Source: Xanthobacter sp. NM-59 (GTDB lineage Bacteria > Pseudomonadota > Alphaproteobacteria > Rhizobiales > Xanthobacteraceae). Taken from it: a stretch of DNA of 64,000 nucleotides. The position numbers and the translations under genes were made by a program. The notes beneath the pieces were generated by a model. It had not been told where the DNA came from. It searched no databases and saw only the letters and a list, made by a program, of their open reading frames with translations. Location of the stretch: contig NZ_JACBFQ010000008.1 in NCBI RefSeq assembly GCF_021401125.1, positions 1-64,000 on the forward strand, written 5' to 3'. Positions 33,681 to 50,928 of the stretch are shown here, in pieces (position 1 is the stretch's first letter; each line of letters starts with the position of its first letter).

Positions 33681-33770
33681 GGAGAGGTGGCAGAGTGGTC
33701 GAATGCACCGCACTCGAAATGCGGCATAGGCGCAAGTCTATCGGGGGTTCGAATCCCCCCCTCTCCGCCA
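33681..33770 (+). tRNA. tRNA-Ser (anticodon CGA)
   Basis: 90 bases including an encoded CCA. The acceptor stem pairs GGAGAGG (33681) with CCTCTCC. The anticodon stem CCGCA/TGCGG encloses the loop CTCGAAA with anticodon CGA. A long variable arm typical of serine tRNAs is present, and the T-loop reads TTCGAAT. It is the integration target: its 3' 60 bases recur at 50869-50928. Confidence 0.95.
33711..33770 (+). repeat. attL core: 60-bp repeat at the tRNA-Ser 3' half
   Basis: These 60 bases, from the anticodon arm to the terminal CCA, are identical to 50869-50928. The flanking bases differ at once on both sides (CG before versus GT; GC after versus CT). An exact repeat of a tRNA 3' end with an integrase next to the far copy is the hallmark of site-specific integration. 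Confidence 0.93.
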
Positions 33771-33963
33771 GCAAAATCAACGACTTAGAAGACGAAAAAC
33801 AGCCGCTCCGGCGGTGCTCTTGAAATCCCCAAGTCACCAGCATGCCACCAGCCACAGCGCTGCCGCCAATCGAAGCCAGCGACGCCGCCTCTTTGGCTCT
33901 CCTATGTATGTTCATGGTTTGTACCGACAGCCCCCCTGTGAAGTGGGCCTGGGCTCTGCGGTT

Positions 33964-35910
33964 TCAGAACCGCCTCTTGTCAGCTTCGGTCATGCGGCCT
34001 CGGGCTTTGTTCACGGCGCCCGGCACGGCCTTCATCACCTGTTCGTTGTTCGCTCGCAGCATCGGCCCCACCACGGCCCGAATCTGGTCGGCCGTCATGT
34101 TCGATCCACGCGCATCGATGGACAGGTGCGAGGTGATGCTGGCGCCTCGCGCCACCGGCTGGATCTTCGGCAGTGTGAGGCCGCGCGCCGCCATGCTGGG
34201 CACGCTCACCGGCCCGCCATTGGCATAGCCCTTGGCGCCCCGCCGCATCGCCTCCACCACGGCGACGCCGCCAGCCCGGCGGATGTCGTCCTGAGACCAC
34301 ACCACCTCGCCACGATGGACCACGCCCGCCGGGTCATATTTCCCGCCGGCCCCGGTGTAGCCGCCCGTGGCGTACCAGCCGGTCGTTCCGCCGGACAATG
34401 CGCCGGTCAGCCCCTTCGTGACAGCGCCAAGGAGCCCGCCACCACCAGAGCCGAGCGGGCCTTCTCCCAACAGCGCCGACTTCAAGAGCATCTGCGCCAT
34501 CAGGTCGAGGGTGTCGCTCAGCACATCATTGAGGGACTTCGTGCCGTTGATGAGGCCCGTGATGCTGCTGGTGGCGATGTTGCCCAGCTCCTGCTGCATC
34601 TCCTGCATGCGCTGCTGCGACAGGCGGGTTTGCTCGATTTCCACCGTCACCCGCCCATATTGAGCCGCCAGCTCGCGCATCTGCGCCGTCTGCTCGGGTG
34701 TCAGGGTGATGTCGTGCATCTTCGCGGCAGCGAGCGCGTCCTGTTCGAATCGGTACGCTGCCGCCGCTTCAGTCGTCATGCCCAGAGCGGCTTGCTCGGT
34801 CTGGAGGTCTGCGAGGCGCAGTTGCGACGACTTGTGCAGATCGTCGTAGTCATAGGCGTTCTTCGGCCCCTTGGCCTTCGTGGCTGGCTTGCCCGCGTTC
34901 GGGTCCGGCGTCCACACCCAATCCTCGCTGGTGCCCTTACGCAATGCGCTCTTCTGCCCGGCTGCCAGCCCGGCCGCGAGCCTTGCGCGGGCGATGCTCA
35001 TCGGGTCGTTTGGGTCGATCTTGGTCACGCCGGCCGGCGGGGTGTAGCCGGCGGACAGCTTTGCCCAGCCGCTCCAATTGCCCATGCTTGTCATGAAGGT
35101 CTGAACAGACTGCGCCCACGAATCGAAGGTGGTGGCCACGTTCACGATGGCGCCCTTCATGCGGGCCTCGAAGGTGAGCGAGAGCTGCTCGAACTTCGCG
35201 TTCAGGTCGCTCGCCTTGCTCACGAGTTCGCTGTCCATCACCAAGCCCAGGTCGCGGGCCTCGGCTCGGGCCTCGGCGATGGACTTTCGGCTCTCTTCGA
35301 GGAAGCGCACGAACTGCTCGCCGCCGGTGCCACCGAACACCTCGTCGGAGATGCGGATTTGGGCGGCCGTGTCGAACTTCTTCAGCCGGTCGATGATCTC
35401 CTCGAAGAGCATCACCGGGTCTTTCAGGCTCTCCTTGAGCTTGTCCGCGCTGAAGCCGAGCCGCTGGAAGGCCTCCGCGCCCGAGCCCTTGCCGGTGAGA
35501 ATGAACTCGTCAGCGCGAAGCTGCATCTCCTTCAGGCCGTCGCTCAAGGCGTCGGTTGAAACCTTCGCCTGTCCCGCCGCGTATTCCAGCTCCTGGAATG
35601 GCTCCACGGCGATACCGGCCTTCTTCGCCTCCGCGCTCATGTCGGCAATGGAGGATGCGACCTGGCGCAGGGTGCTGAGCCCCTGCGTGACGCCAAGCGC
35701 GGCCAGAGCGCCGGCCAGCGCCGGCATGGCGGACATGGCAGCGCGCGCATTGGCCGCCATGGTGGAGAAGGCCGCCGATGCCTTCCCCATCTGCCCCTGG
35801 GCACGGCCTCCGAACTTGTCGAGCTCTGTGCCGGCCTTCTTCAGGCTGTTGTTGAACTCGGCGCTGTTGAGGCCAAGGTCTACGTAAAGTCCGCCGACGC
35901 TGCTCGCCAT
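33964..35910 (-). CDS. Phage tail tape measure protein
   Basis: A 648-aa protein with an N-terminal helical region (GLNSAEFNNSLKKAGTELDKFG), typical of tape measures. A hydrophobic middle (SAMPALAGALAALGVTQGL) and long helices follow, then the lambda-type minor tail C-terminal part (GWYATGGYTGAGGKYDPAG, VHRGEVVWSQDDIRRAGG). ATG 35910 gives MASSVGGLYVDLGLNS. It is the last gene before attL, only about 190 bases from the tRNA. In normal phages this is the middle of the tail module, so everything downstream is missing. Confidence 0.85.
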   Translation of the reverse strand: MASSVGGLYVDLGLNSAEFNNSLKKAGTELDKFGGRAQGQMGKASAAFSTMAANARAAMSAMPALAGALAALGVTQGLSTLRQVASSIADMSAEAKKAGIAVEPFQELEYAAGQAKVSTDALSDGLKEMQLRADEFILTGKGSGAEAFQRLGFSADKLKESLKDPVMLFEEIIDRLKKFDTAAQIRISDEVFGGTGGEQFVRFLEESRKSIAEARAEARDLGLVMDSELVSKASDLNAKFEQLSLTFEARMKGAIVNVATTFDSWAQSVQTFMTSMGNWSGWAKLSAGYTPPAGVTKIDPNDPMSIARARLAAGLAAGQKSALRKGTSEDWVWTPDPNAGKPATKAKGPKNAYDYDDLHKSSQLRLADLQTEQAALGMTTEAAAAYRFEQDALAAAKMHDITLTPEQTAQMRELAAQYGRVTVEIEQTRLSQQRMQEMQQELGNIATSSITGLINGTKSLNDVLSDTLDLMAQMLLKSALLGEGPLGSGGGGLLGAVTKGLTGALSGGTTGWYATGGYTGAGGKYDPAGVVHRGEVVWSQDDIRRAGGVAVVEAMRRGAKGYANGGPVSVPSMAARGLTLPKIQPVARGASITSHLSIDARGSNMTADQIRAVVGPMLRANNEQVMKAVPGAVNKARGRMTEADKRRF

Positions 35911-35911
35911 A

Positions 35912-36199
35912 TCACGCCACCTTCGCCATGAAGTCCTTGAGGCCGGCACCGATGGCCGCGCCCACCGCCGCGAGGCCCTGGCTCTCGATCAGTTCATTCG
36001 CCCGCCTTAGATCCCAATCGGACAGGTGGGGGCTGTGCGCCATGAACATCTCGTTCGCAGTACCGGCCGCCACAAGAGCCTGTGTCGTCTGGAGGCTTGC
36101 GCCTGTCTCGCCCTGCAACTCTGCGAGCACATCCGGCATCGGCTTTCCGAGGAGCTTTTCAACAGCGACGAGGCGATTGATATTGTACTTGAAGTTCAT
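35912..36199 (-). CDS. Tail assembly chaperone-like protein (GTA gp10-like)
   Basis: A 95-aa product beginning MNFKYNINRLVAVEKLLGKP, resembling the small GTA-type proteins encoded just before the tape measure. It ends one base before the tape-measure ATG, which supports the chaperone position. Family assignment rests on size, the N-terminal pattern and location. No frameshift product is obvious. Confidence 0.55.
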   Translation of the reverse strand: MNFKYNINRLVAVEKLLGKPMPDVLAELQGETGASLQTTQALVAAGTANEMFMAHSPHLSDWDLRRANELIESQGLAAVGAAIGAGLKDFMAKVA

Positions 36200-36202
36200 G
36201 GC

Positions 36203-36712
36203 TTACCCCTTCTTTGCATTCCGCTTCGCGAGGCGCTTAGCGGTCTTTTCGATTTCCCGGCCCAACTCTTCCTTGATGATGCCGGACACCTTGTCCTGAT
36301 TGGCTCGGAACGCCGGCCCGAGAAACGGTTGGGCCGGCTGCTTGATGGTGCCGAACTCTGCGAAGTGGGCCCGGTACAGGGCCGTTCCCACCTGAACCGT
36401 GGCGGAGAGGCTCTTGCCCGCGTCCGCCTTGTTCGCGGCACGGGCAGCGGCAGCGGCTTCCGTGCGGCTGGCACCTTCCGTCATGGCCTGGGCGAACGCA
36501 GTCTTGCCGGCGCTGCTGCGGTTGATCCTGACGCCGATGCTGCTCTTCAACTCGCCGGTGTCGAAAGGTGCCCAGTTCTGCGCATCTTTCTTGATCGGTT
36601 CGGCCGCCTTCTTCAGCGTCCGCTCAAGAATGTTGCGCTGCGTCGCCTTCTTGAACTGGGCAAGATTCTTGTCCAGCTCGCGGAGGCCGTCAATCTTCAC
36701 CTTCATCTTCAT
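36203..36712 (-). CDS. HK97 gp10-like head-tail/neck protein
   Basis: A 169-aa protein with MKMKVKIDGLRELDKNLAQFKKATQRNIL and then DTGELKSSIGVRI, both typical of the HK97 gp10 family. Later comes ALYRAHFAEFGTIKQPAQPFLGPAFRAN. Such proteins work at the head-tail junction. The start at 36712 overlaps the terminase stop (ATGA), so it is coupled. The tail-completion and major tail tube genes expected next are absent. Confidence 0.8.
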   Translation of the reverse strand: MKMKVKIDGLRELDKNLAQFKKATQRNILERTLKKAAEPIKKDAQNWAPFDTGELKSSIGVRINRSSAGKTAFAQAMTEGASRTEAAAAARAANKADAGKSLSATVQVGTALYRAHFAEFGTIKQPAQPFLGPAFRANQDKVSGIIKEELGREIEKTAKRLAKRNAKKG

Positions 36713-38313
36713 GCCAGCACCATGAGGTCGGGCGTCCATTCCTCGCTATCGTAGATGGAACCCCCATCGCCGGCCGCCGCGAGGCTGACGGCCATCCAGG
36801 CGGCGAAGGCGCCATCGATGCGGCCGGTGCTCTTGCCCTTGTGCATGGTGCGGTTGCCGGCCTGATCGGTATGGATCGCCACATTGTCGAAGCACCAGCG
36901 CAGCACCGGATGGCCGCCGTGCCGGAACCTGCCCTGCAACACGGCCCGCTCGATCTCCGACAGGGCGGGCGATTGTGTCACCCACCCGAGCTGCATCGTC
37001 TGCACCGGCAAGCCGTCGTCCAGCAGCGGCGACATGACGGGCTGGGCATAGGCCCGGTCGAAGCCGATCTCGCGCACGGGGAAGCGGGCGCACAGGTCGC
37101 GGATGCAGTCCTCAATGGCGCGATAGTCCACCACCTGCCCCGGCGTGGGGGTGAGGAAGCCCTGTTCCGCCCACAGGGGATAGGGCACGCCATCCCGTTC
37201 CGCCCGAGTGCGCAGGGCTTCCTCAGGGCAGAACAGCCAGGGATGGACGATGTAGCCGCCTTCCCCGTCCCGCCAGCACGCCACCACGGCGGTGAGGTCG
37301 GTGGTGACGCTCATGTCCACCCCGATCCAGCACGGTTGATCCGCCAGGGCGTCGAGGTCCACCGTGCCGGCGCAGGCGTCATAAAGCCCCATGTCGAGGA
37401 AGGGGCTCGCGGACTGGTCCAGCCAGCGGTTGAGGTTGAACTGCAAGAACTGGTCGCGGGCATGGGGCGAGAGGATCGCCTTGCGGGCCTCGTCGCGGAA
37501 GCCTTCAAGGTCGGGATAGCCGTGCACCATGCCGGGGTTGAGCCGCGCCCACACCGCTTCGCTCTGCCAGTCGTCCCCCTCTTCCAGCATGAAGATGGCC
37601 GGCAGCGTGGCGGGATCATCGATCTCACCCTTCTGCACCTTCATGGCGTAGTCCACCGTCTTCCAGGCGAGGTTCTCCTGTCCCCGGCCCGAGGTGGTGG
37701 CGACGATGAGAAGCGTCTCGGGAACCTTCACCAGCGCGGAGGTGAGGGCTTCCCATTGCTTGCGACCCGCAGTGCCCTCCCAGACGTGCAGCTCGTCGGC
37801 AATCACCACGTTGGGCGTCTTGCCGTGCTGGGTCTTTCCGTCCGAGGCGACGGCCCGATAGGTGACGCGCTGGTCTGGAAAGCTGATCTCCGACTTGTAG
37901 GGCAGCGCGCGCAGGTGCTTCGCCATGCGGCGGTCGCCCGCCACGATCAGGTCAACCTCGCGATAGAGCTCAAGCGCCTGATCGTGCGCCGATGCCGCAG
38001 ACACGATGAGCCCGCCCGGCTGGCGCTCCGGCCCCATCAGATGCAGCAGCGTGATGGCCGCGCAAAGGGAGGTCTTCCGGTTACCGCGCGGCACCACCAG
38101 CACCAGGCGCCGCGCCACGCGCGAGCCATCCGCGTGCCGGGGGCCGTAGAGCCGGCGGATGATCCGCTCTTGCCAGGGGTCGAGGGTGAAGGGGTGCCCC
38201 GGCGCCCGGCTCTTGGGGTGCTTCAGCTTGCGCAGCCACTGCACCGCCCGTTCGCCACAGCCCAGCGAATCGGGGATCTCCGAGCCGTCGTCAATCCAAG
38301 AGGGAATCATCAT
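36709..38313 (-). CDS. Phage terminase large subunit
   Basis: A 534-aa packaging motor. The ATPase Walker A-like motif is VPRGNRKTS, with Walker B NVVIADELHVWEG and the coupling region LLIVATTSGRG. The nuclease acidic centre is at WIGVDMSVTTDLTAVV, with further acidic positions near the C-terminus (GRIDGAFAAWMA). It overlaps the small-subunit gene by 23 bases. Full length, with no visible break, so packaging capacity looks intact. Confidence 0.92.
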   Translation of the reverse strand: MMIPSWIDDGSEIPDSLGCGERAVQWLRKLKHPKSRAPGHPFTLDPWQERIIRRLYGPRHADGSRVARRLVLVVPRGNRKTSLCAAITLLHLMGPERQPGGLIVSAASAHDQALELYREVDLIVAGDRRMAKHLRALPYKSEISFPDQRVTYRAVASDGKTQHGKTPNVVIADELHVWEGTAGRKQWEALTSALVKVPETLLIVATTSGRGQENLAWKTVDYAMKVQKGEIDDPATLPAIFMLEEGDDWQSEAVWARLNPGMVHGYPDLEGFRDEARKAILSPHARDQFLQFNLNRWLDQSASPFLDMGLYDACAGTVDLDALADQPCWIGVDMSVTTDLTAVVACWRDGEGGYIVHPWLFCPEEALRTRAERDGVPYPLWAEQGFLTPTPGQVVDYRAIEDCIRDLCARFPVREIGFDRAYAQPVMSPLLDDGLPVQTMQLGWVTQSPALSEIERAVLQGRFRHGGHPVLRWCFDNVAIHTDQAGNRTMHKGKSTGRIDGAFAAWMAVSLAAAGDGGSIYDSEEWTPDLMVLA

Positions 38314-38689
38314 CTTCGCTGTCCCTCATGGTGGGGCGGGAACGGCTCACCGGCGTGAGGCCCAATTCGCTACCGAGCTGGCGCAGTTGCGTCATGGCGT
38401 CGTGGCGCAACTTGGCCGCCGGGTGCGGCTTGGGGATGCCGGCCTCCGTGCGATAGGTGAGGCCCTCGCTGGCGAGGATGCGGCACGCCTCTTGAAGCTG
38501 CCCGAATGCCGCGCAGTAGGCGGCAAGCGTCGGCAGGTCCGCTTCAGTCAGGGTGCGCCGCTCGTCCACCAGGATCGGCGCGACGCGCTTCCATTCCGCC
38601 TTCGCCTCCTTCGAGAGCCACGACGGGGCCGGGGGCACGGCGGTGACGGGCGCGGGTGTCACGATCTTGCCAGGGCGGGCGCCACGCAT
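38291..38689 (-). CDS. Phage terminase small subunit, P27 family
   Basis: A 132-aa product. The family block is PSWLSKEAKAEWKRVAPIL, then LTEADLPTLAAYCAAFGQLQEA and HPAAKLRHDAMTQLRQLGSELGL. It recognises DNA for packaging by the large subunit. Two bases separate it from the connector gene. No pac or cos site could be located by eye. Confidence 0.88.
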   Translation of the reverse strand: MRGARPGKIVTPAPVTAVPPAPSWLSKEAKAEWKRVAPILVDERRTLTEADLPTLAAYCAAFGQLQEACRILASEGLTYRTEAGIPKPHPAAKLRHDAMTQLRQLGSELGLTPVSRSRPTMRDSEDDDSLLD

Positions 38690-38690
38690 C

Positions 38691-38990
38691 TCAGCACACC
38701 CGCTGCCGGTAGGGGTCGATCAGGTCGAAGAAGCCCAGGGGCGCTTCAGCCAAGTCGCCCGCCATGGTTGCCTCGCGGTTCGCATAGAGGTGCCCGGCAT
38801 AGAGCTTCATGGCGTGCACCAGGGGCTCGGGAACGCCATCGGTGAAATCGTCCAGCGGGCCGCACCAGCCTTCCACGACGCCGCGCGACGCCTCGATCAG
38901 GTGGGCGAAGAGGGCGTCTTCGTCGTCATGGTCGATCCGCAGATGCGCCTTGAGGTCAGCCAGCGGGAGAATGTCGAGGGTGTCGGGCAT
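38691..38990 (-). CDS. Phage head-tail connector protein (gp6-like)
   Basis: A 99-aa protein with LADLKAHLRIDHDDEDALFAHLIEAS and a C-terminal FDLIDPYRQRVC, the usual pattern of HK97 gp6-like connectors. It lies between the HNH gene and the terminase small subunit in the late operon. Confidence 0.85.
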   Translation of the reverse strand: MPDTLDILPLADLKAHLRIDHDDEDALFAHLIEASRGVVEGWCGPLDDFTDGVPEPLVHAMKLYAGHLYANREATMAGDLAEAPLGFFDLIDPYRQRVC

Positions 38991-39059: not shown

Positions 39060-39431
39060 TCAGGAAGCGAGGGGCGGAAGTCGGGAACCACCCCCGGTAT
39101 TTTCACGTCCGCGTTCGGTGGATTGCTTCCATCGGTCATGGCAGGGGCGGCATAGGGGAGCCCAGTTGCTCCGGTCCCAGAACAGCTTCCGGTCGCCACG
39201 GTGGGGAATGCGGTGGTCAACCACGGTGGCGGGGGCACCGCAGCGGGCGCAGGTCTTGTGCACCTTGAGGAAGGCCGCGCGCTCGCTCTGCCATTTGGAG
39301 TCGTAGCCTCGGGCCGCAGCGGTCGGGCGGCGCTTGTCCGCCGCGGCCTTGCGCTTCTGCTCACAGGGGCACAGCTCGCGAGGGGCGATCTTGTAGCCGC
39401 AGGCGCAGCGGCGAGGCGGGAGCATGGGCAT
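39060..39431 (-). CDS. HNH endonuclease
   Basis: A 123-aa protein starting MPMLPPRRCACGYKIAPREL. An N-terminal zinc knuckle (CACG...CPC) and a core HNH fold with CARCGAPATVVDHRIPHRGD and NWAPLCRPCHDRW are visible. Such nucleases beside terminase genes help HK97-type packaging. ATG 39431 is preferred because the upstream in-frame extension crosses a repeat-rich region. Confidence 0.88.
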   Translation of the reverse strand: MPMLPPRRCACGYKIAPRELCPCEQKRKAAADKRRPTAAARGYDSKWQSERAAFLKVHKTCARCGAPATVVDHRIPHRGDRKLFWDRSNWAPLCRPCHDRWKQSTERGRENTGGGSRLPPLAS

Positions 39432-39748: not shown

Positions 39749-41311
39749 TCAGCTCGCCATGATCTTCATGGTGCGCAGGGCCTCGGGCATCACCACCAGG
39801 CCACCGACACGCCGGCGGGCGTGGAATCGCACGATGCCCTTGGTGGCCTGGGTGTAGGGATCGCGCATGATCGAGAGACCCACCCGGTCGAAGATGCGAT
39901 AGGCGGTGCCGAAGTCGCCGAAGGCCATGGGCCGGGCATCGGCCGCCACATCCGCGAGGTCGGCGAACTCCATCACAGGCCGACCGAGAATGGTGGGCGG
40001 GTTGCCGGCGGCGAGGCTGTCCGCCCACAGATAGGTCCCATCCGTCGCCTTCAGCTTGCGCACGGTGGCCATGGTCTTGCGGTTCATGGCCCACACGGCC
40101 TGTCCCACATAGGCGGTGGGGATGGCGTGGTAGAGGTCAATCAGGCTGTCGCCGGTGAGGGCCGCCGCCGCGCCGCTCGCCACATCGGTGATGCCGGTAT
40201 CGGCGAGGAAGCCCATGGGCTGGCCGGTGCCGGAGCCGGCGACGAAGGCGGTCGCCTCCAGCTTGGCGAAGGCAAGGCCCAGCTCGGCGGCAAGCTCACC
40301 CTCGATGTTGAAGGCCGAATCTTCCAACAGGCGCTGCGACACGTCCACCCAGCACGCGGCCTCATGGGTGGTGACGCTCACCTGTTCGTATGCCGCCGTG
40401 GTCTCGGGGCGGTCGTCCGTCTCGCCCACCCAGGCCGCTGCCGGGGCGGAGGTGCGCCGGGGGATGATGGCGCCGCCGGAGGAAAGGCCGGCCACCCGCG
40501 CGACCTGCCGCATGGGGCTGAACTCGGTCACCGTCTTCAGGATCTCCGCCATCAGCGGGTCGGGCGCCACCAGGTAGCCGGCCGAAGCGTCGTTCGCCAC
40601 CGTGAGGGCCTTGCGCTCCACCTCGGGCACCAGGGCTTCGCCGCGCCGCAGGAAGGTCTCATAAGCCTTCTGTTCCAAGGTGCGGGAACCGGTGTCGGAG
40701 ATGATGCCGGGGCGGTTGAGCTTCGCTTCCAGCTTGTCCAGCCGGTCGGAAAGGCCCTTCTGCACCGGCTCCACCGCCTTCGTTACGATGGCCGCCACAT
40801 CCACGGTGGGCGCCTCGGTCTTGGTCTCCGGCGCTTCGGCCGTCGTTTCGCTCATGTCGGTTTGCTCCGCACCCTTCACAGCGGTCACGCGCGCGCCGGG
40901 GTGCATCGGCACGGTGACAAGAGAGACTTCCAAGAGGTCCAGAGCCGAGATGGTCCGGCCGCCGCCCTTGCGGGGAACGGCCTTCGTGGTCTGGAAGCCC
41001 ACGGAGAGGCCCTTGACGGCGCCGGCCCTCACCATGGCGTGCACCTCGCGGGCGCGGGCCACGTCATCGACCAGCATCTTGCCCTTCAGTCGCAGCCCAT
41101 CGGGGCTTTCGGTCGCTTCGGTCCAGGCGCCCACCGGGTCGCCCATGTCGTGGCCGAAGAGCATGGGGAGCGGCAGGCGGGCGCCCGCGAAGGCGCCCTT
41201 TTCGATCACGTCGCCCACGCGGTCCGGGAAGCCGAACGGCCAGGCGAGGCCCTCGATTTCCCCCGTGGCGCCGGCATCGATGGCCTTCAGCTCGATATCG
41301 AGGCGTTCCAT
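39749..41311 (-). CDS. HK97-type prohead protease-major capsid protein fusion
   Basis: A 520-aa chain. Residues 1-140 are an S78 prohead protease with His54 (LFGHDMGDP) and Ser103 (KGLSVGFQT). Residues 150-215 form a charged helical scaffold-like delta region. Residues 220-520 are the capsid fold, with PMRQVARVAGLSSGG, SRTLEQKAYETFL before it and KGIVRFHARRRVGG near the end. ATG 41311 overlaps the portal stop. An internal in-frame ATG at 40855 (MSETTAEAPE), with a GGAG about ten bases before it, could also make a 368-aa capsid-only product. Confidence 0.88.
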   Translation of the reverse strand: MERLDIELKAIDAGATGEIEGLAWPFGFPDRVGDVIEKGAFAGARLPLPMLFGHDMGDPVGAWTEATESPDGLRLKGKMLVDDVARAREVHAMVRAGAVKGLSVGFQTTKAVPRKGGGRTISALDLLEVSLVTVPMHPGARVTAVKGAEQTDMSETTAEAPETKTEAPTVDVAAIVTKAVEPVQKGLSDRLDKLEAKLNRPGIISDTGSRTLEQKAYETFLRRGEALVPEVERKALTVANDASAGYLVAPDPLMAEILKTVTEFSPMRQVARVAGLSSGGAIIPRRTSAPAAAWVGETDDRPETTAAYEQVSVTTHEAACWVDVSQRLLEDSAFNIEGELAAELGLAFAKLEATAFVAGSGTGQPMGFLADTGITDVASGAAAALTGDSLIDLYHAIPTAYVGQAVWAMNRKTMATVRKLKATDGTYLWADSLAAGNPPTILGRPVMEFADLADVAADARPMAFGDFGTAYRIFDRVGLSIMRDPYTQATKGIVRFHARRRVGGLVVMPEALRTMKIMAS

Positions 41312-42612: not shown

Positions 42613-42975
42613 TTAGATGCCGCTCGTCTTGCGCAGCGCCTCAATCTCGATCCGCGCCAGCCGCTCGGCTTCGGAGCGCGAAAAGCCACCGTCATATTCG
42701 AGGATGGCCGCGCGCTCCTCGAAGGCGTCTCGCCATCTCGCTTCATCTCCGGCATCATCGTTTTCAGGTGTTACAAGGGTTACAGGTGTTACAAGATCTG
42801 CAAGTTGTTGATATAAAATTGTTTTTTCCACTACGCGACTTGTAACACCATGTGCGGGCGCTGGTGTTACGGGTGTTACAGCCGGCCGGCCCGTCGCCGT
42901 GCCGCCTTCGCGCAACCCGCGATCATGGGTGCGGGACTTGGAGGCGAAGACGGCGAAGCGGCTGAAGTCGGGCAT
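42613..42975 (-). CDS. Phage-element protein with VTP repeats, unknown function
   Basis: A 120-aa product. The middle contains short VTPVTP repeats encoded by 9-bp TGTAACACC units (at about 42,767-42,881). The C-terminal half, RDAFEERAAILEYDGGFSRSEAERLARIE, looks like a conserved helical domain I have seen in alphaproteobacterial phage replication regions but cannot name. A related, degenerate copy lies in inverted orientation near 49,331-49,456. Start and stop abut neighbouring genes. Confidence 0.6.
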   Translation of the reverse strand: MPDFSRFAVFASKSRTHDRGLREGGTATGRPAVTPVTPAPAHGVTSRVVEKTILYQQLADLVTPVTLVTPENDDAGDEARWRDAFEERAAILEYDGGFSRSEAERLARIEIEALRKTSGI

Positions 42976-44336
42976 CAGCCGAAGTCCCGCTCGGCATAGG
43001 TCGCGGGCTCGGCATCGCCAAGAATGCCGGCCGCGATGACGTAGCAGCGCACCGGATTAGCAAACCCTGGCAACCTCTGGAGGCTCTGGAGCTTCCCCCC
43101 GCCACCCGCCACCAGCAGCCCGCGCCCGTTCAGCACCTTCGCCACCGCTCCCGCGTCCAGGCCGGCGCACACCTCGCTTTTCCACGATTCCGGCAGCACC
43201 AGATATTCGATGCCGCCGCCTTCGGCCCGGCGCCGGAAGCCCACGCGGTTTGTGATGCGTTGGTCAATGGGCGCCCCGATGCCGTCGCGCGGCGCCAGTT
43301 CGCCCATGGCCTCGAAGCGCGAATTGCCGTGAAGCTCGATGAAGCGGCGCACGGCCGCGATGGCTTCCGTCTCTTCCGCCGGCTCGATACCGCCCCGCGC
43401 AGTGAGCCAGTCCCGGAAGCACCGGGCGGCGGCGCGCGTCGCCTCACCCTCGGGCCAGGGCAGGACACCGGCAGCGGTCGCCATCTCCCCGCCAGCGGCC
43501 ACCAGTCCGAAGCGGGCGGCAACGCGGCTCACCTGCCCATCGGCGGCCTTGGGGCAGTTCTCGGCAATGAACTCGTCCACATAGCCCTTCACCGTGGGCG
43601 CGATGGCGTCGAAATTGTTCACCAGCGTTTGCAGGAAGACGCGGGTGGGCGTGCCGTAGTGCTCGCCGGCCGCCATCTTCAGGTGCCGGGCGAAGGCATC
43701 GGCGGAAGGAAAGCCGTGCAGGTTCTCGAACAGGCCATGGCCCGCGCCGGCATCGGCCGGGATGTCCACAATCCGCACCTGTTGGCCGGCGGCGACCTTC
43801 CGGCCGCGCCCATCCTCCGCGATTTTGTCGGACAGGCTCAACTCGCCGCTGGAGAGGAACAGCAGGCGCCATTCGGCCGGGGGCCGCGCTGAACCATCCC
43901 GGCCGGCACGCGATTTGCCGACGCCATTCGCCAGCATGTAGGCGATTTGCCCAGCCTCGCGTCCATCCACCTGCCCCATCTCGTCGAGGCACAGCAGGCA
44001 GTCGCAGTGCATGGCCGCGACGCCTTCGAGCCCGTTGGAGGTGGCGCGCCAGGTGCGCACATAGCCCCGGATGCCACCGCCGCCCCAGGCCGAACCCGCC
44101 ACCACTAGCGCCGTGCTCTTCCCCGTGGAAGAGGCGCCCCGGAAGTGAAAGCCTCCGCTCTCCGCGCCGGCAGGATAGAGCAGCGGCGCCGCGAAGGCGG
44201 TCGAAAGCGCGAGCGCCAGCCGCGAATTGCCCACCGCGTACCGGCCGATATTCTCTTGCCAGCCCTCCAAGGTGCCGGCCTCCCGCAAGGCATGGTCCAC
44301 CGCGCCGTTGGTCTGGAGAATGATCCGCTCACCCAT
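42975..44336 (-). CDS. DUF927-type primase-helicase, C-terminal (ATPase) part
   Basis: A 453-aa segment beginning MGERIILQTNGAVDHALREAG. The Walker A is FHFRGASSTGKSTAL and the Walker B region is LLCLDEMGQVDGREAGQ, matching the DUF927 AAA-type core. The C-terminal part ends with a winged-helix-like region. The domain start lies in the preceding ORF: the two overlap by eight bases and join smoothly if one base is removed near 44330. Either a frameshift mutation or a coupled split gene explains this. Confidence 0.75.
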   Translation of the reverse strand: MGERIILQTNGAVDHALREAGTLEGWQENIGRYAVGNSRLALALSTAFAAPLLYPAGAESGGFHFRGASSTGKSTALVVAGSAWGGGGIRGYVRTWRATSNGLEGVAAMHCDCLLCLDEMGQVDGREAGQIAYMLANGVGKSRAGRDGSARPPAEWRLLFLSSGELSLSDKIAEDGRGRKVAAGQQVRIVDIPADAGAGHGLFENLHGFPSADAFARHLKMAAGEHYGTPTRVFLQTLVNNFDAIAPTVKGYVDEFIAENCPKAADGQVSRVAARFGLVAAGGEMATAAGVLPWPEGEATRAAARCFRDWLTARGGIEPAEETEAIAAVRRFIELHGNSRFEAMGELAPRDGIGAPIDQRITNRVGFRRRAEGGGIEYLVLPESWKSEVCAGLDAGAVAKVLNGRGLLVAGGGGKLQSLQRLPGFANPVRCYVIAAGILGDAEPATYAERDFG

Positions 44337-45582
44337 TGGCGTGCTCCACGGTCTGGTTGCTGAGGGTGAAGGCGACGCCATGCCAGCCGACGCGCCCGAC
44401 GCATCGGGCCTTGGTGTCGGGGCGTGCCGTCGAGATGTATTCGTGCAGAGCATCGCGGGCGAAGCGACCCGGTGCCATGATGAGCCCCAGGGACAGGAGA
44501 CGCTCGCGATAGGCTGTGCCGTCACCGGCCAGCATCGCCATGGGCATGGCCCAATCTTTCACGCGCTTGTCGCGGTCGGTGATCTTCAGCAGACGGCCCC
44601 ATTCCTCACCGTCCGCGCTTCGTGTTTCCGCCGACACCTCAAGGAGCGAACAGAACCACCGCCATTCGATGGTGATGATGCCGGTTTCCTTGTCGGCCTT
44701 CTCCACCCGCTTTTCGACGCCATTGGAGACGACGCGGAACGGCCACTTGATGAATTCCTCAGGTTCGCCGGCCTCGATCCGCCGCAGCGTCTCGCGCTCT
44801 TCGGCATCGCGATAGAGCGGCAGAAAGCCGGGATCGTCGCGCATCGCGGCAACGCGCTCCGCCGTCCACCCCTCTTCCAGAGCGTCGGCAATGTCCCACC
44901 CGGCCGGCAAGGCTTCGCCGCGCAACGTCTTCTCTTCGCCCTGCCAGAGCCAGGCGCCCAGGCGATCCGGCGGCAAATGGAGCACCTGGGCGGCCCCAGC
45001 GGCGCGCGCCAGCTCGCACACCTTGTCGCCATAGGCTTGGCCAGCGTCGTCATTATCGGTCGCGATCACCACCGTTCGCCCGGCGAGCGGGCTGAAGTCC
45101 GTGAGGTGCGGGCTATTGGCGCCATGGGCGGGCGTTGTCGCCACCATGTCGGGGAACAGCGCGGCGGCGGCGTCAGCGACCTTTTCGCCCTCTCCCACCA
45201 ACACGGCAGCACCAGGATCGGCGGAGATTTCCGGCAGGTTCAAGAGTGGACGCAGCCCCTCCATCCCCTTTGAGCGCCAGGCGGTCTTCCCATTCGCCAG
45301 GTCGCAGAACGTCAGCGGAAGGATGGCCTTCGACGGTTTCCCCTCGCCGTCGAGAAACTCGAAGCGTGCCACGCCGAACATGAGCTTTTCAAAAGCATCG
45401 CGGTACTTCCATACTTTGACAGGCTTCCCATATTTCGGATGTCGAAACGTTTCCGGCGCCGGCGCATCGGCCGGCACGGGAACAATGGGTGTCTTTTCCC
45501 CGCGCTTCGGAGCCGCCCGCTCCGAGGCGGACGCCTCTTCCGGCGAGAGGGGGGCGAAAGCGTCATCAAGGGCAGCGTGCAT
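44329..45582 (-). CDS. Toprim/DUF927 N-terminal part of a split primase-helicase
   Basis: A 417-aa protein. The first part has primase-like features: VLVGEGEKVADAAAALFPDMVATTPAHG is a Toprim acidic motif, followed by TVVIATDNDDAGQAYGDKVCELA, a DxD Toprim motif. The end enters DUF927 (GTAYRERLLSLGLIMAPGRFARDAL) and stops at GVAFTLSNQTVEHANG. In relatives as I know them, this continues directly into the next ORF's GERIILQ. ATG 45582 was chosen; the stop of the upstream gene overlaps it. Confidence 0.75.
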   Translation of the reverse strand: MHAALDDAFAPLSPEEASASERAAPKRGEKTPIVPVPADAPAPETFRHPKYGKPVKVWKYRDAFEKLMFGVARFEFLDGEGKPSKAILPLTFCDLANGKTAWRSKGMEGLRPLLNLPEISADPGAAVLVGEGEKVADAAAALFPDMVATTPAHGANSPHLTDFSPLAGRTVVIATDNDDAGQAYGDKVCELARAAGAAQVLHLPPDRLGAWLWQGEEKTLRGEALPAGWDIADALEEGWTAERVAAMRDDPGFLPLYRDAEERETLRRIEAGEPEEFIKWPFRVVSNGVEKRVEKADKETGIITIEWRWFCSLLEVSAETRSADGEEWGRLLKITDRDKRVKDWAMPMAMLAGDGTAYRERLLSLGLIMAPGRFARDALHEYISTARPDTKARCVGRVGWHGVAFTLSNQTVEHANG

Positions 45583-45878
45583 CAAGCACCCCCTTTCACG
45601 TTGAGCATGGCAGCGAGACGGCGCGCGGCGTCCGCCTGGGTGAGGTCGAAGAGGTAGGCAGCGAGCGACACGGGGTCGCCGCCCGCATCGCCCGTCGCGA
45701 AGTCGCTCCACCGGCCCGAGCGCAGATTGATGGAAAAGGAGCCCGGCCGGCTGTCGGCGCGCTTGGGATTGCGCACCACGTATTCGGCTCCCTGCCGCCG
45801 GCCCCCAGGGAGCCAGCGGGCGAGGATGGAGGGCAGGGTCGCCAGAGCGGCCCCGTTGATGGCGGCAAAGTCGATCAT
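45582..45878 (-). CDS. Primase N-terminal-like small protein
   Basis: A 98-aa product with SILARWLPGGRRQGAEYVVRNPKRAD and then SFSINLRSGRWSDFATGDAGGDPVSLAAYLF. This block normally precedes Toprim/DUF927 primases in alphaproteobacterial prophages. It resembles a CHC2 zinc-binding primase domain in layout but lacks the cysteines. It is coupled to the next gene by a TGATG overlap. Confidence 0.7.
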   Translation of the reverse strand: MIDFAAINGAALATLPSILARWLPGGRRQGAEYVVRNPKRADSRPGSFSINLRSGRWSDFATGDAGGDPVSLAAYLFDLTQADAARRLAAMLNVKGGA

Positions 45879-46305: not shown

Positions 46306-46554
46306 TCAGCGGTCCTCCGAAGTGCTGTTGCGGACGTTCCCGAGGCGCCGTTCAGCCCACTTGTCGAGTTCGTCGGAGGGATAAAGCGGGGTGCGAACCG
46401 ACTTCTGGAACGGCGGGCCGCTGCCAGTGCACGCCATCTTGGCCAGGGTGGCCGGCCGCAAGCCGATGCCATGCTTCAACTCCAAATATTCGCACGCCTC
46501 CCAGCGCCGGAGGCGAGGCTTGCGGAGGTGGGGCGGGAGGTTGATCGCTTCCAT
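46306..46554 (-). CDS. AlpA-like helix-turn-helix regulator/excisionase
   Basis: 82 aa with RWEACEYLELKHGIGLRPATLAKMACTGSGPPFQ and a C-terminal LYPSDELDKWAERRL. This is the MerR/AlpA-type HTH layout (recognise a lead helix, then read through the Y-S/D-L-W block). AlpA-type proteins act as excisionases or activators in satellites and prophages. Its stop is two bases from the next gene. Confidence 0.7.
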   Translation of the reverse strand: MEAINLPPHLRKPRLRRWEACEYLELKHGIGLRPATLAKMACTGSGPPFQKSVRTPLYPSDELDKWAERRLGNVRNSTSEDR

Positions 46555-46557: not shown

Positions 46558-47070
46558 TCAGTTGTTCTCCCCATAACACTCAGTAAGGACGGCTTCCGGG
46601 TGATACCCCAGGGAGGTGGTCACCCGGTCGAATACATTGTTCACCTCAAGAGTGACCCACCCAAGCGGATGATGAAGGTTCGTTCGGATCGTTGCAGTAA
46701 CATCTGTGCCCGGCATCCAAAGAACTTCCGTTGCTTTCGGACCGGCGACACAAAGAAGAGTGAAGCCCGGATCGCGGAACAGCAGAGACGGATTCCGCTC
46801 TTCGTCACCCGTGTGCGCAAACATCGATGCGTGGTGGAACGCGTCGGTGAGTTCTACGCCCAGGTCAATGAGCCCCTTGGCGATGGCGATTTCCATCACG
46901 TTGAAAAAAGAGAATTTGCGCTTGATGCCAGGGGTTCCTGGCATGTCGATTTGGTGGTTCTTGTGTCCGACAATCAGGCCGCGCTTGATCCACGTCTGAA
47001 GGGCGGAATTGGTCACGTCGGCGGCGGCGATCACCTGTCCGGTTGTGAATTCGGCATTGAAAATGCTCAT
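46558..47070 (-). CDS. MerR-like helix-turn-helix regulator
   Basis: 170 aa. The N-terminal HTH is EFTTGQVIAAADVTNSALQTWIKRGLIVGH. A longer C-terminal domain of unknown function follows. It probably regulates the replication and late genes. A tandem ACATCGA repeat (listed as TCGATGT on the plus strand) lies just upstream of its start. Confidence 0.65.
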   Translation of the reverse strand: MSIFNAEFTTGQVIAAADVTNSALQTWIKRGLIVGHKNHQIDMPGTPGIKRKFSFFNVMEIAIAKGLIDLGVELTDAFHHASMFAHTGDEERNPSLLFRDPGFTLLCVAGPKATEVLWMPGTDVTATIRTNLHHPLGWVTLEVNNVFDRVTTSLGYHPEAVLTECYGENN

Positions 47071-47257: not shown

Positions 47258-47281
47258 AACTAATTCAATCACTTAGCGGAT

Positions 47282-47948: not shown

Positions 47949-47975
47949 TGGGTTGCTCCTAATAGTGTTTCGGGG

Positions 47976-48179
47976 TCAGTCCCGCTTTTCAGCCTGCTGG
48001 TAGGTCATTCGGGAGCGGACGGCACGAATGACCTCACTGTTTTGGGAACTGCCGTTCCGCTTTGATTCCGTTTCAATCCAGAGCTTCACATCAGGCGGCA
48101 GCCTGACCATAAGCCCCGCACGTTTCTCCGGTTTGCTCAATTTTTCCTCCACCAATTTGGTGTCACGATGATGCGACAC
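47976..48179 (-). CDS. Ribbon-helix-helix (Arc-like) DNA-binding protein, minus strand
   Basis: 67 aa from GTG 48179. The core GLMVRLPPDVKLWIETESKRNGSSQNSEVIRAVRSRM is a classic RHH fold (beta strand VRLPP, then two helices). The start is uncertain: operator-like sites lie over the first codons, so a downstream GTG or TTG may be used. It is divergent from another RHH gene, an arrangement typical of a lysogeny switch. Confidence 0.7.
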   Translation of the reverse strand: MSHHRDTKLVEEKLSKPEKRAGLMVRLPPDVKLWIETESKRNGSSQNSEVIRAVRSRMTYQQAEKRD

Positions 48180-48217
48180 TAAAATGGTGTCAAGCTTCTC
48201 TTGGCACTAATTTGGTG
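48150..48217. promoter_or_regulatory. Three evenly spaced operator-like sites between divergent RHH genes
   Basis: Near-palindromes CACCAATTTGGTG (48150-48162), CACTAAAATGGTG (48177-48189) and CACTAATTTGGTG (48205-48217). All share CAC(C/T)AA..TGGTG-type half-sites. Their centres are 27 and 28 bases apart. They span the divergent start region of the two RHH genes and are probably bound by one or both proteins. Confidence 0.65.
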
Positions 48218-48229
48218 CTATCGGGGCGC

Positions 48230-48502
48230 ATGGCACGACAGGACGATTTCGTTCGCATCACGCTTAGGCTGCCCCAGGAGCTGCATGAGAAGCTCATGGC
48301 CGCGGCGCGCGTGAACTCATTAAACGCGGAGATCGTCCGGAGGCTTGAGCACAGCTTCGGTCAAATCATGTCAGATGAGGAATGGGATGCCGCATCGCAC
48401 CAATCGCCATGGCAGCTCATTCGCCTGATGCGCAGCGCCATCGATGATCTGGAGAAGATCGTTGATCCGGATGGAGCACGGGACCGGGAAGGCGGCGCGT
48501 GA
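48230..48502 (+). CDS. Arc-family ribbon-helix-helix repressor
   Basis: 90 aa from ATG 48230 (MARQDDFVRITLRLPQELHEKLMAAARVNSLNAEIVRRLEHSF), the standard phage Arc/MetJ-like pattern. The C-terminal tail is helical and acidic. It is the first plus-strand gene in the element and faces the other RHH gene across three operator-like sites. It likely controls the lysogenic state. Confidence 0.8.
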   Translation: MARQDDFVRITLRLPQELHEKLMAAARVNSLNAEIVRRLEHSFGQIMSDEEWDAASHQSPWQLIRLMRSAIDDLEKIVDPDGARDREGGA

Positions 48503-48633: not shown

Positions 48634-48855
48634 ATGAAAAAGCCGAGCCAGCGCGAACTGAAGGTTCTTCAGCACTTCGTGGGGGACTGCATTGAGGCCC
48701 CGAGCGCCTTCCCCGGTGTCGGCAAGGCAACGTTCGATGCCATGGTACAAGATGGCTGGATTGTGTGGGTGAACTCGCCTGTGACCAATGAGGCCGGCTA
48801 TCGCATTACCAAAGCCGGTGATGCTGCTGCCTATGGTGAGGGTTCGGCGGAATGA
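48634..48855 (+). CDS. Small hypothetical protein
   Basis: 73 aa from ATG 48634 with an AGGAG site upstream. KKPSQRELKVLQHFVGDCIE and then YRITKAGDAAAYGEG resemble a winged-helix-like small protein, but no family is named. The stop overlaps the following membrane-protein start (ATGA at 48852-48855). Confidence 0.6.
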   Translation: MKKPSQRELKVLQHFVGDCIEAPSAFPGVGKATFDAMVQDGWIVWVNSPVTNEAGYRITKAGDAAAYGEGSAE

Positions 48856-49088
48856 GCCTGATCCACAATGAACAGGTGAAGCTCACCGCGAATTGGTTCA
48901 ACACCATGGCTTCGGCTGCCGTGGTCGCGGGGATTATCGTGCCGGCCGCCGCTGCCTTCTATGGCGTGGGTGGATACGATCACGCTGGTGGAGGCTGGCG
49001 CTTCCTGCTCAGCGCTGTGATTTGGATTTGCAGCGGTTCGGCCCTACACTATTTTGCACGGCGCACTCTACGGAGGCTTCAACCATGA
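48852..49088 (+). CDS. Small two-TM membrane protein
   Basis: 78 aa. Two hydrophobic segments: ASAAVVAGIIVPAAAAFYGVG and FLLSAVIWICSGSALHYFA. It is coupled at both ends by four-base overlaps, to 48634 and to the 38-aa gene. Function unknown; the position in a lysogeny region argues against a late holin. Confidence 0.6.
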   Translation: MSLIHNEQVKLTANWFNTMASAAVVAGIIVPAAAAFYGVGGYDHAGGGWRFLLSAVIWICSGSALHYFARRTLRRLQP

Positions 49089-49201
49089 GCGCATCAACCT
49101 TTCTGCTCTATGTCGCCCCCGTCGCTCTCTTGGCTGTGGGCGCCATCGCCTATTGGCTGACGGGGCGAGCCGACAAACATCACCTCCACCCCGGCGAGTG
49201 A
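49085..49201 (+). CDS. 38-aa single-TM membrane protein
   Basis: MSASTFLLYVAPVALLAVGA begins a single TM segment ending near IAYWL. Start ATG 49085 overlaps the stop of the two-TM gene. It is too small for most gene callers but has clear coupling, so it is probably real. Function unknown. Confidence 0.55.
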   Translation: MSASTFLLYVAPVALLAVGAIAYWLTGRADKHHLHPGE

Positions 49202-49311
49202 TGAGCGGCTTGGCCAAAGCCCCCCACCCCAAGGATTGACAGCCCCGCCCCCAAGGTGGGGCTTTTATTTTCTCAATGCACCTTGCGACGCATTAGCCTC
49301 TGCCGGGGGGC

Positions 49312-49322
49312 GGGGGGGGGGG
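49312..49322 (+). repeat. Eleven-base G homopolymer
   Basis: An uninterrupted run of 11 G, preceded by six G and a C. It lies in noncoding sequence between the small membrane genes and the VTP-repeat remnant. Length variation between copies or sequencing error is possible. Confidence 0.85.
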
Positions 49323-49330
49323 CGCCCACT

Positions 49331-49456
49331 GCCAGCTTGTAACACCTGTAACACCTCATGCCGGGGCAGGTGTTACAGATTTTATCCATTACATATCAAC
49401 GCTGTAACACCTGTAACACCTGTAACACCGCGAAAACGATGATGCCGGGGATGAAA
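49331..49456 (+). pseudogene. Degenerate, inverted copy of the VTP-repeat gene at 42613-42975
   Basis: On the plus strand this reads LVTPVTPHAGAGVTDF before a stop, then in another position AVTPVTPVTP with a frameshift. It aligns in reverse with 42,740-42,890: the shared block CCGGCATCATCGTTTTC, a run of TGTAACACC units, the GTTGATAT segment and a second TGTAACACC pair. An 11-bp inverted repeat (CTGTAACACCT at 49346, AGGTGTTACAG at 49368) is included. It is probably a relic of the same gene family. Confidence 0.65.
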
Positions 49457-50704
49457 TCACCCTTCAGGCTCGCGCTTCTTCCCGCCCCTCATCGCCTCCG
49501 CGATCTTTCCGGCGGTGCGGTCCGCCACGGCTTTCAAGGGATCATCCTGAAGGTGCGCATAAATCTCGGTGGTGCTGGCCTGCTTGTGCCCCAGCACCTT
49601 GCCGACGATGAATAGGGACGCGCCGTCAGCCACAGCGAAAGAGGCGAAGGTGTGTCGCAGGTCGTGAAGGCGCAGTCCCGTCAAGCCGGCGCGCTCCCGC
49701 ACCCGCTGCCAAGCACCAGGGGTTGCCGAGATGCGGCCCCACTTCCCGCGTGTGCCGGCGATCACATAGTTGTCAGCGTTGCGCCGTGGGATGCCCTTCA
49801 ACACCTCCACCGCTGCCCCCGGCAAGGGCGTGACCTTGGCGCCGGTCTTGCTGTCCGGAAACCGGATCAGACCGCGCTCGAAGTCGATCCAATCCCATTG
49901 AAGGTTCTCGATCTCGCTGCGGCGGCATCCCGTGAGCAGCAGGAGACGAAACAGGGCGGCGAAGGCGCTCGTGAGTTCACACGCCTCTTCCATGGCGTTG
50001 ATGGCTTCGGCAAGGCCCTCCACCTCCTTCGCGGAAAGGAAGCGTTCCAGCTTCTGCTGGCTGAAGAGCTTCACGCCTGCCCCCGGGTTGGTCGCGATGA
50101 TCCCGCGATTGTGGGCGAAGCTGAGCATGGCCTTGAGGGTCGCTGTAGCGCGCGCGGCAACGCCCCTGCCTCCCAGCACCTTCTTGCGGCCCTTCTTCGC
50201 CTCTGTGGGCCGCGCCGTCTTTCCGTCCGCAACATCCGCTTGGAAGCGCTCCACGTCGGCCCTGGTCAGGCCCTTCACCGGCTTCTTTCCCAGCAGGTGG
50301 AGCACATGAGCATTTAGCAAGGCCGCGTCCGTCTCCCAGGATCGAGGCTTCTTGTTCGGTCGCGCAGCCGGGCCTTCCTTCAGATACACCTCGGCAAGGT
50401 CTGCCACCGTCACGGTCTGCCGTGCGGCTTCCTTCTCGCCAAGAGGATCGTTGCCGTTGGCGATGTCGTAGAGCGCTTGGCGGGCTTTCTCCCGTGCCAT
50501 CTCGCAGGTCCAGGGCGAGCCGTGCTTGCCGATGGTCAGTTCACGCTTGATGCCCTGCTGCGTGCGGTAGCTCACCACATAGGACTTCACCCCGGCAGGC
50601 GTCACCCGCAGGCCGAAGCCCTTCAGCTCCGCATCCCACACCATAACCTTGCGGGCGGGGTCCGGCACGGTGGCATCCACCACCCTCTTTGTGAGCTTCG
50701 GCAT
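49457..50704 (-). CDS. Tyrosine recombinase (phage integrase, DUF4102-type N-terminus)
   Basis: 415 aa. The N-terminal domain (MPKLTKRVVDATVPD...GLRVTPAGVKSY) is the DUF4102/arm-binding type. The catalytic residues are Arg in TGCRRSEIENL, HxxR in LHDLRHTFASFA, His in LGHKQASTTEIYAHL and Tyr in the same segment. It lies beside attR, with a 15-bp direct repeat between gene and att that may be an arm site. It is most likely the integrase of the element at 33711-50928. Confidence 0.92.
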   Translation of the reverse strand: MPKLTKRVVDATVPDPARKVMVWDAELKGFGLRVTPAGVKSYVVSYRTQQGIKRELTIGKHGSPWTCEMAREKARQALYDIANGNDPLGEKEAARQTVTVADLAEVYLKEGPAARPNKKPRSWETDAALLNAHVLHLLGKKPVKGLTRADVERFQADVADGKTARPTEAKKGRKKVLGGRGVAARATATLKAMLSFAHNRGIIATNPGAGVKLFSQQKLERFLSAKEVEGLAEAINAMEEACELTSAFAALFRLLLLTGCRRSEIENLQWDWIDFERGLIRFPDSKTGAKVTPLPGAAVEVLKGIPRRNADNYVIAGTRGKWGRISATPGAWQRVRERAGLTGLRLHDLRHTFASFAVADGASLFIVGKVLGHKQASTTEIYAHLQDDPLKAVADRTAGKIAEAMRGGKKREPEG

Positions 50705-50773
50705 GGTGACTTCCCGGTTGGTGTCGCCGCCAAGTCACCACGAGTCGGCAAACCGAGGCAAACGGGATCGACG

Positions 50774-50841
50774 CCGATCCAATCCGAGAAAACGAGAACT
50801 CATTGAAAATCCGCGCACTATCTAACCCGATCCAATCCGAG
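50774..50841. repeat. 15-bp direct repeats beside attR, possible integrase arm sites
   Basis: CCGATCCAATCCGAG at 50774-50788 and again at 50827-50841. Both sit between the integrase start and the att core (50869). Two copies close to the recombination site, next to the integrase gene, match the usual place of arm-type binding sites. Related but imperfect ATTGG-rich sequence occurs at about 42,585-42,612. Confidence 0.5.
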
Positions 50842-50868
50842 CCAACTCAGGAAAACAGGAACAAGCGT

Positions 50869-50928
50869 CACTCGAAATGCGGCATAGGCGCAAGTCTATC
50901 GGGGGTTCGAATCCCCCCCTCTCCGCCA
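50869..50928 (+). repeat. attR core: second copy of the 60-bp tRNA-Ser 3' half
   Basis: Identical over 60 bases to 33711-33770. It lacks the tRNA 5' half, so it is not a gene. It also encodes, on the other strand, the last residues of the serine recombinase (ending near WRRGGDSNPR). Confidence 0.93.

Follow-up and report, generated by a model that had tools for sequence, protein, structure and literature searches.

The window analysed here is a stretch of 64,000 nucleotides from Xanthobacter sp. NM-59 (contig NZ_JACBFQ010000008.1, positions 1 to 64,000). It contains an island with phage-like head and packaging genes and a tape measure protein (TMP), which is likely to be a satellite that forms its own capsid and depends on a helper phage for part of its tail. 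The island is bounded by exact 60-bp direct repeats, the attachment (att) sites, which enclose 17.16 kb (Table 1). In 100 shuffles the mean number of such repeats was 0.00. ARAGORN places a tRNA-Ser(CGA) gene at the left boundary, and the left repeat forms its 3' end. Read from the right att site, the order is integrase, small open reading frames (ORFs) on the opposite strand, Arc-like regulators, ORFs without assignment, MerR-like and AlpA-like genes, a 98-aa ORF, a DUF927 primase in two ORFs, portal, protease-capsid, HNH endonuclease, gp6-type connector, TerS, TerL, gp10, a 95-aa probable chaperone and TMP. The TMP stop codon and the left repeat are 193 bp apart.

The island proteins were assigned by Pfam and PHROG family matches. 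The head is of the HK97 type, with an S78-type prohead protease fused to the capsid protein. An earlier reading of this DNA, the original prediction, had named the exact att repeats, a tyrosine integrase, AlpA-like and Arc-like regulators, a DUF927-type primase and a full set of head and packaging genes. The repeats, the integrase, an Arc-like regulator and the primase are all confirmed by the matches in Table 1, although the primase is split. For the AlpA-like gene the family match is weak (HTH_17, E 0.0085, below the cut-off), but related genes occur in other elements of this kind, the best seven at 51-65% identity. Portal, protease-capsid, connector, TerS, TerL and HNH are present. The description of the island as head-complete is slightly generous, because the head closure protein (Hc1) and the tail terminator were not found.

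The tail genes lie between TerL and the left repeat. The PF10145 match of the TMP is slightly below the family cut-off. The 95-aa ORF between gp10 and TMP, missing from the original prediction, is a probable tail assembly chaperone, judging by its family match and position. Families of tail tube, terminator, head closure, tip, fibre and baseplate proteins had no match among the scanned island proteins in Pfam or PHROG, which agrees with the predicted lack of tube, tip, fibre and baseplate. The predicted lack of a lysis gene holds above the cut-offs; the only lysis-like match is that of a 78-aa ORF to a holin family (score 15.8 bits, cut-off 28.4).

Table 1. Features of the island and its integration site, by position in the window
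Feature	Position	Strand	Evidence
tRNA-Ser (CGA), integration site	33681..33770	+	ARAGORN
Left att repeat, 60 bp, exact	33711..33770	.	Repeat search
Tape measure protein (TMP), 648-661 aa depending on start	33964..35949	-	phrog_10574 E 3.9e-103; PF10145 E 6.5e-7
95-aa probable tail assembly chaperone	35912..36199	-	phrog_2115 'tail protein' E 2e-7; position before TMP
HK97 gp10-like tail completion / Neck1 protein	36203..36739	-	PF04883 E 5.7e-9; phrog_5 E 3.8e-28
Large terminase TerL	36709..38313	-	PF20441, PF03354
Small terminase TerS (Terminase_4)	38291..38689	-	PF05119 E 2e-27
gp6-like head-tail connector	38691..38990	-	PF05135 E 8.6e-11; phrog_40
HNH endonuclease; start uncertain, frame open to 39728	39060..39431	-	PF01844; gene call
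Prohead protease fused to major capsid protein	39749..41314	-	PF04586, PF05065 E 1.1e-77
Portal protein	41311..42519	-	PF04860 E 9.8e-85
Iteron cluster A, TGTAACAC, 4 copies, either strand; candidate replication site	42768..42880	.	Inverse match to cluster B
DUF927 primase-helicase, C-terminal ORF	42975..44336	-	PF06048 positions 132-282; gene call
DUF927 primase, N-terminal ORF	44329..45582	-	Weak Toprim matches and DUF927 1-129
98-aa primase-linked ORF, no family match	45582..45878	-	98% identity to sibling element
AlpA-like helix-turn-helix (HTH) regulator (weak)	46306..46554	-	PF12728 E 0.0085; relatives in satellite-like loci
MerR-like HTH protein (weak)	46558..47070	-	PF00376 E 0.025; 98% identity to sibling
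Arc-like regulator (weak)	47976..48179	-	phrog_582 E 9e-4; PF03869 E 0.0052
Arc-like regulator	48212..48502	+	PF03869 E 6.3e-6
78-aa ORF, sub-threshold generic holin-family match	48852..49088	+	PF07332 E 0.014; no PHROG match
Iteron cluster B, TGTAACAC, 6 copies	49338..49430	.	Motif count
Tyrosine integrase	49457..50704	-	PF00589 E 9.7e-24, PF13356
Right att repeat, 60 bp, exact	50869..50928	.	Repeat search

The gene content and boundaries of the island recur as one architecture in many genomes. A TMP search of 397 genomes of the same order (E 1e-10) matched 61, and stretches of up to 20 kb were examined around 20 of the matches. Nine of these (L031-L039) have portal, capsid, TerS and TerL followed directly by TMP. 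Four (L040-L043) have a different order and a TerL just 26-29% identical, and the remaining seven have a TMP without the head set of the island. Both flanks were examined for eight of the nine TerL-TMP loci, the ninth being a short contig. In all eight, tRNA-anchored direct repeats of 17-67 bp mark the two ends, 16.9-18.8 kb apart; the tRNA is Pro in one, Gln in four, Ser in two and Thr in one. In L039, one of the nine, TMP is followed by a gpM-like minor tail protein (PF05939). A capsid search of 391 genomes of the family gave 20 further stretches, with TMP behind TerL in 11, TerL without TMP in 6 and something else in 3.

A wider search used a query (A1) built from an alignment of 20 TerLs, all from TMP-bearing loci. 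It returned 80 loci in named genomes, 78 of them with a called TerL; genes in the loci were called with a custom codon-usage caller rather than a standard tool, and the gene scans covered the portal onward. TMP lies at most five genes behind TerL in 59 of the 78 loci, a share enriched for such loci because of how A1 was built, and in 53 of the 59 it follows TerL immediately. These 59 comprise 31 loci from Hyphomicrobiales, 24 from Rhodobacterales, one from Sphingomonadales, two from Bosea (without rank) and one from a metagenome bin labelled Cytophagaceae; two of them (L154 and L157, that is G099:C2 and G170:C6) duplicate two of the eight extended loci. The TMP ORF has at least 577 aa in 57 of the 59, the exceptions being L162, at a contig edge, and L160, where it is split. 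In this Phyllobacterium element (L160:11606-13599) TMP is called as two ORFs, the sole visible exception apart from contig ends.

A tRNA-anchored direct repeat of at least 15 bp closes 27 of the 59 TMP loci, against 4 of 289 when left and right flanks of different loci were paired as a control. The closed elements span 15.5-19.0 kb in 26 of 27 cases (median 17.7 kb), the size range leaving out L126, which has a 15-bp repeat, 11.9 kb and no portal or capsid label. No tRNA-anchored repeat was found in the other 32 of the 59; 10 of these 32 are shorter than 21 kb, and at least 18 of the 59 show no tRNA in view. The original prediction had proposed looking across genera for the same gene set with conserved size and tRNA boundaries, and the closed loci, 8 of 8 extended and 27 of 59 in named genomes, are what was found. 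It had also named as a counter-case close relatives that are full prophages of 35-50 kb, which were not seen.

TerL matches at E 1e-120 occur in 8 of 385 genomes of a class sample and 5 of 398 of a phylum sample. All belong to the island's class, and its own genome and one other are counted in both samples. The A1 query against viral contigs gave 70 loci with a called TerL, 26 of them with TMP behind it; the remainder are more distant, and many are short. With TMP as the query, no relative was found in the viral contigs. No near-identical copy of the island was found on plasmids.

Known phages are distant. In 50,697 phage records, the best matches to TerL and portal each have 34% identity, while satellite-like loci reach 69% for TerL and 89% for portal. 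The best phage match to TMP, in Sinorhizobium phage phi2LM21, has 53% identity over 30% of the length; in this phage, TMP is followed by several genes, including one for a tail fibre protein J.

The same genome holds a sibling element (G000:C34, L101) of 15.9 kb, bounded by a 54-bp repeat at tRNA-Met. The closing repeat lies 346 bp behind TerL, and thus there is no room for a TMP. The sibling is head only, without gp10, chaperone or TMP. Identity to the island is high for the MerR-like protein and the 98-aa ORF (98% each), DUF927 (80-90%), portal (89%) and gp6 (84%), and lower for integrase (57%), the AlpA-like protein (56%), capsid (47%) and TerL (38%). Six comparisons of shared ORFs between island and sibling gave ratios of nonsynonymous to synonymous change (dN/dS) of 0.04-0.35, the value for the MerR-like gene resting on seven changes only. 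The shared ORFs look to be under purifying selection.

A quick TerL tree of 117 rows places the TerL of the window in two starred sets, one of 17 and one of 21 rows, in which every row is TMP-bearing; presence of TMP needs 14 changes on this tree. The TerL of the sibling sits on a long branch and its placement is unsure. By identity, the left half of the island, apart from the integrase and the AlpA-like gene, goes with the head-only sibling, and TerL goes with TMP-bearing elements. By these comparisons the island looks like a mosaic.

The two primase ORFs overlap by 8 bp, ATGGGTGA. In the sibling the primase is one ORF of 866 aa. A frameshifted, broken primase was considered and dropped, since in Methylobacterium sp. 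J-068 (L204:2105-4730) the gene is divided at the same position into two ORFs, 61% and 83% identical to those of the island, and the overlap is again the 8-bp ATGGGTGA. The motif TGTAACAC occurs 11 times in the window against 0.66 expected, and 10 of the 11 copies lie in the two island clusters. These clusters are largely mirror-oriented; cluster A follows the primase and cluster B adjoins the integrase. In the sibling, the two corresponding positions hold an iteron pair as well, but its unit is TGGGGAACA. The clusters are candidate origins of replication.

Two further clusters in the genome carry head genes. A third head-only cluster, C11 (L104, G000:C11:1105000-1124900), adjoins tRNA-Ser(GCT); its left end was not found. 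It has capsid, protease and portal in reverse order, plus an integrase. Another, C31 (L103, G000:C31), reads like a gene transfer agent by its gene order and its 220-aa TMP. Gene transfer agents typically have no integrase or att sites and are fixed in a lineage. The island does not fit this description, as it has both an integrase and att sites, and the cluster resembling a gene transfer agent is the separate C31 locus.

Tail genes were compared in 66 loci that have portal, capsid and TerL and that extend for 3 kb or more past TerL, 51 with TMP and 15 without. From the 80 loci, 2 without a called TerL were left out and 12 more were dropped (no portal or capsid, or less than 3 kb past TerL). 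The tube protein is found in 31 of the 51 loci with TMP and in 0 of the 15 without. The corresponding counts are 47 and 0 for the terminator, 47 and 1 for gp10, 47 and 3 for Hc1, and 6 and 0 for tip-like genes. The tube label stands for phrog_158, major tail protein, in four scanned proteins (three loci) and in L031. The sole locus with gp10 among those counted as TMP-negative is L191, in which TMP precedes TerL; a recount gives 52 loci with TMP and 14 without. The set found in the island, chaperone, gp10 and TMP without labelled tube, terminator or Hc1, recurs in the order chaperone-gp10-TMP in L107 (its TMP cut by a contig end), L144 (Bosea) and L191. In L200 and L237 there is a TMP but no labelled gp10, tube, terminator or Hc1.

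Genes behind TMP were scanned with Pfam and PHROGs in 26 closed elements (141 proteins). Among the families listed, a chaperone family accounts for at least seven proteins and a distal tail protein for at least three; there is also at least one each of fibre-like protein, minor tail protein, lysozyme and weak holin-like match. Other genes there are regulators, methylases and restriction-like genes. The fibre-like protein belongs to L143 or its like. The lysozyme belongs to a closed relative, so the statement that there is no lysis gene is not true of every relative. The tails of L139 (13798-16363) and L143 (13749-16299) are nearly whole, with tube, TMP, a protein of 264-271 aa and a fibre-like protein of 586-588 aa (phrog_11439 in L139); the L143 element measures 18.7 kb. 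A protein of about 135 aa and unknown function, phrog_5707 (cluster c10, for example L034:7562-7969), lies behind the capsid gene in 15 of 15 loci without TMP and 24 of 51 with it, and is absent from the island of the window.

A tentative reading of these counts, held with somewhat less than even confidence, is that alphaproteobacterial satellites form a graded, nested series. It would run from head only, through the addition of TMP, chaperone and gp10, then of terminator and head closure, then of tube, to that of a distal tail protein, with receptor-binding and lysis genes hardly ever acquired. Ruler and neck interface would come first among the tail functions taken from helpers, since they determine to whose head a tail can attach. 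The tip would be left borrowed, and therefore host range would follow the helper.

Taken together, the island is probably an integrated capsid-forming phage satellite, on a plan like that of capsid-forming phage-inducible chromosomal islands (cf-PICIs). Its TMP, chaperone and gp10 would become part of a chimeric tail built on the tube and tip of a helper. Activity of a helper siphophage would lead to excision of the island by the integrase and to its replication by the primase, probably from the iteron clusters. The island would then build its own HK97-type head and package itself with its own TerS, TerL and HNH. As predicted, it makes no tail tube or tip, and these proteins would come from the helper. 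The satellite chaperone would load the satellite TMP into tails of helper tube and tip proteins, so that the satellite sets tail length and the inner tail end that meets the neck. Finally, gp10 would join the chimeric tail to the satellite head.

Some points weigh against this proposal. The satellite life cycle, helper dependence, own head and chimeric tail are inferred here from genes. With the families searched, the genome showed no HK97-type prophage as a possible source of tails: PF10145 matches the island TMP only, and the four PF04860 portals are those of the island, the C34 sibling, the C11 head-only cluster and the cluster resembling a gene transfer agent. A helper in the same genome was considered and had no candidate among these families; one of another phage type may still be present. 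The chaperone call is a single PHROG match, to which other methods added nothing: tblastn gave no phage match at E 0.1, profile comparison no convincing match, and the single-sequence AlphaFold model was uninformative (pLDDT 50). The relatives that keep tube, distal tail and fibre-like genes or a lysozyme may point to weaker helper dependence in part of the group. Lastly, the paper on the neck of phage 80alpha voices doubt that an HK97-type protein occupies the neck likewise (PMC11661146).

Other explanations can be weighed against the same evidence. The best placed of them, though unlikely, is that the satellite is real and the TMP-gp10 cassette is an inert, phage-derived passenger, the tails being made wholly by the helper. 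Head-only siblings exist, even in the same genome, and TMP is thus dispensable for such elements; the island also lacks the terminator and Hc1 that 47 of 51 TMP-bearing relatives have, and TMP is called as two ORFs in 1 of 59 relatives. An inert passenger fits poorly with a long TMP ORF in 57 of the 59 loci and a position directly behind TerL in 53, and with the loss of 96% to 99.9% of transduction when tmp is deleted from satellites of Vibrio (PMC12987554).

It is less probable still that the island is a decayed prophage, a siphophage that merely persists after deletion of its tail tube, tip and lysis genes. Such a history would account for the partial set of tail genes, and tip genes do follow TMP in two phages examined. 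Yet the layout, size and tRNA closure are common to many genera. The reading frames of the head, packaging and TMP genes remain open, and the only gene in two pieces, the primase, is divided in the same way in Methylobacterium J-068. The shared ORFs look to be under purifying selection relative to the sibling, and the nearest phage TerL and portal are just 34% identical. A decayed prophage was rejected on the kept layout and boundaries and on the distance to phages, and the recurrent layout, size and tRNA closure support the choice of the original prediction for a capsid-forming satellite over a one-off decayed prophage. The least probable explanation is that the island is a temperate phage, very small but autonomous, whose genes for tail tube, tip and lysis escaped recognition. 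It could appeal to the fibre-like proteins beside tube and TMP in the similar-sized L139 and L143 and to the sub-threshold holin-like match of the 78-aa ORF, but the gap between TMP and att is 193 bp, and from portal to att every gene large enough to encode a tube or tip protein has an assignment.

In the region 50896-64000, a serine recombinase ORF terminates within the right att copy, and the genes beyond it look like a conjugative type IV secretion set. This region is probably a second mobile element, in tandem at the same tRNA-Ser.

Among known systems, the island can be compared most directly with cf-PICIs. Both have integrase, primase, portal, protease, capsid, connector, HNH, TerS and TerL, as described for cf-PICIs in PMC10690885, PMC10803314 and PMC10448857; for the AlpA-type regulator of cf-PICIs the island offers a weak match. 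In both the element is chromosomal, integrated at att sites by its integrase, and no tip genes are found. The island differs in having TMP, a probable chaperone and gp10, and in its size (17.2 kb against a cf-PICI average of 14 kb). It is therefore a variant rather than a plain cf-PICI, as the tails of the latter come wholly from the helper. Alphaproteobacteria are not among the main cf-PICI hosts listed in PMC10803314.

The precedent for a chimeric tail comes from phage-inducible chromosomal island-like elements (PLEs) of Vibrio (PMC12987554). PLE11 encodes its own TMP, chaperone and hub, and its tails are 10 nm shorter. Western blots and mass spectrometry showed exclusion of the helper TMP, and deletion of tmp causes a loss of about 99.9% of transduction. 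PLE11 and other Vibrio PLEs resemble the island in having a satellite TMP with a tail assembly chaperone; the chimeric tail is demonstrated in PLE and predicted here from genes. Unlike the island, which has its own capsid and portal, PLE has no capsid of its own and uses that of its helper ICP1, with a contractile tail. The same paper shows cf-PICIs with putative tmp genes (Extended Data Fig. 10b), which are possibly the same kind of element as the island. The putative satellites of PMC10448857 are also similar: they are att-bounded, have their own major capsid protein and a putative TMP, and lack most tail genes. They carry decoration proteins and a baseplate component as well, and, as described there, have no terminase, prohead protease, alpA, head-tail adaptor or Pri-Rep, all of which except alpA are clearly present in the island. 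In the neck of SaPI1 and 80alpha, the equivalent of HK97 gp10 stands alongside TMP, DNA and connector (PMC11661146), an arrangement in keeping with gp10 and TMP moving together.

Satellite-encoded TMPs, including those of cf-PICIs, are thus already in print (PMC12987554, PMC10448857). The TMP that the original prediction regarded as the distinguishing feature of this island is indeed its own, but it is a trait of a group and not a quirk of one copy. What is new is the alphaproteobacterial group and its nested series of tail genes, in which tube and terminator occur only alongside TMP. In the literature searched, no earlier account was found of this group, of a nested tail series, or of a TMP-bearing and a TMP-free element in one genome.

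The PLE work of 2026 describes chimeric tails in one family of satellites and leaves open how the TMP is chosen and what benefit it brings (PMC12987554). This question becomes testable where TMP-bearing and TMP-free elements with a similar replication-portal block share one bacterium, and also in the many tRNA-bounded relatives with stepwise tail sets. The recurrence of these elements suggests that capsid-forming satellites are common in Alphaproteobacteria.

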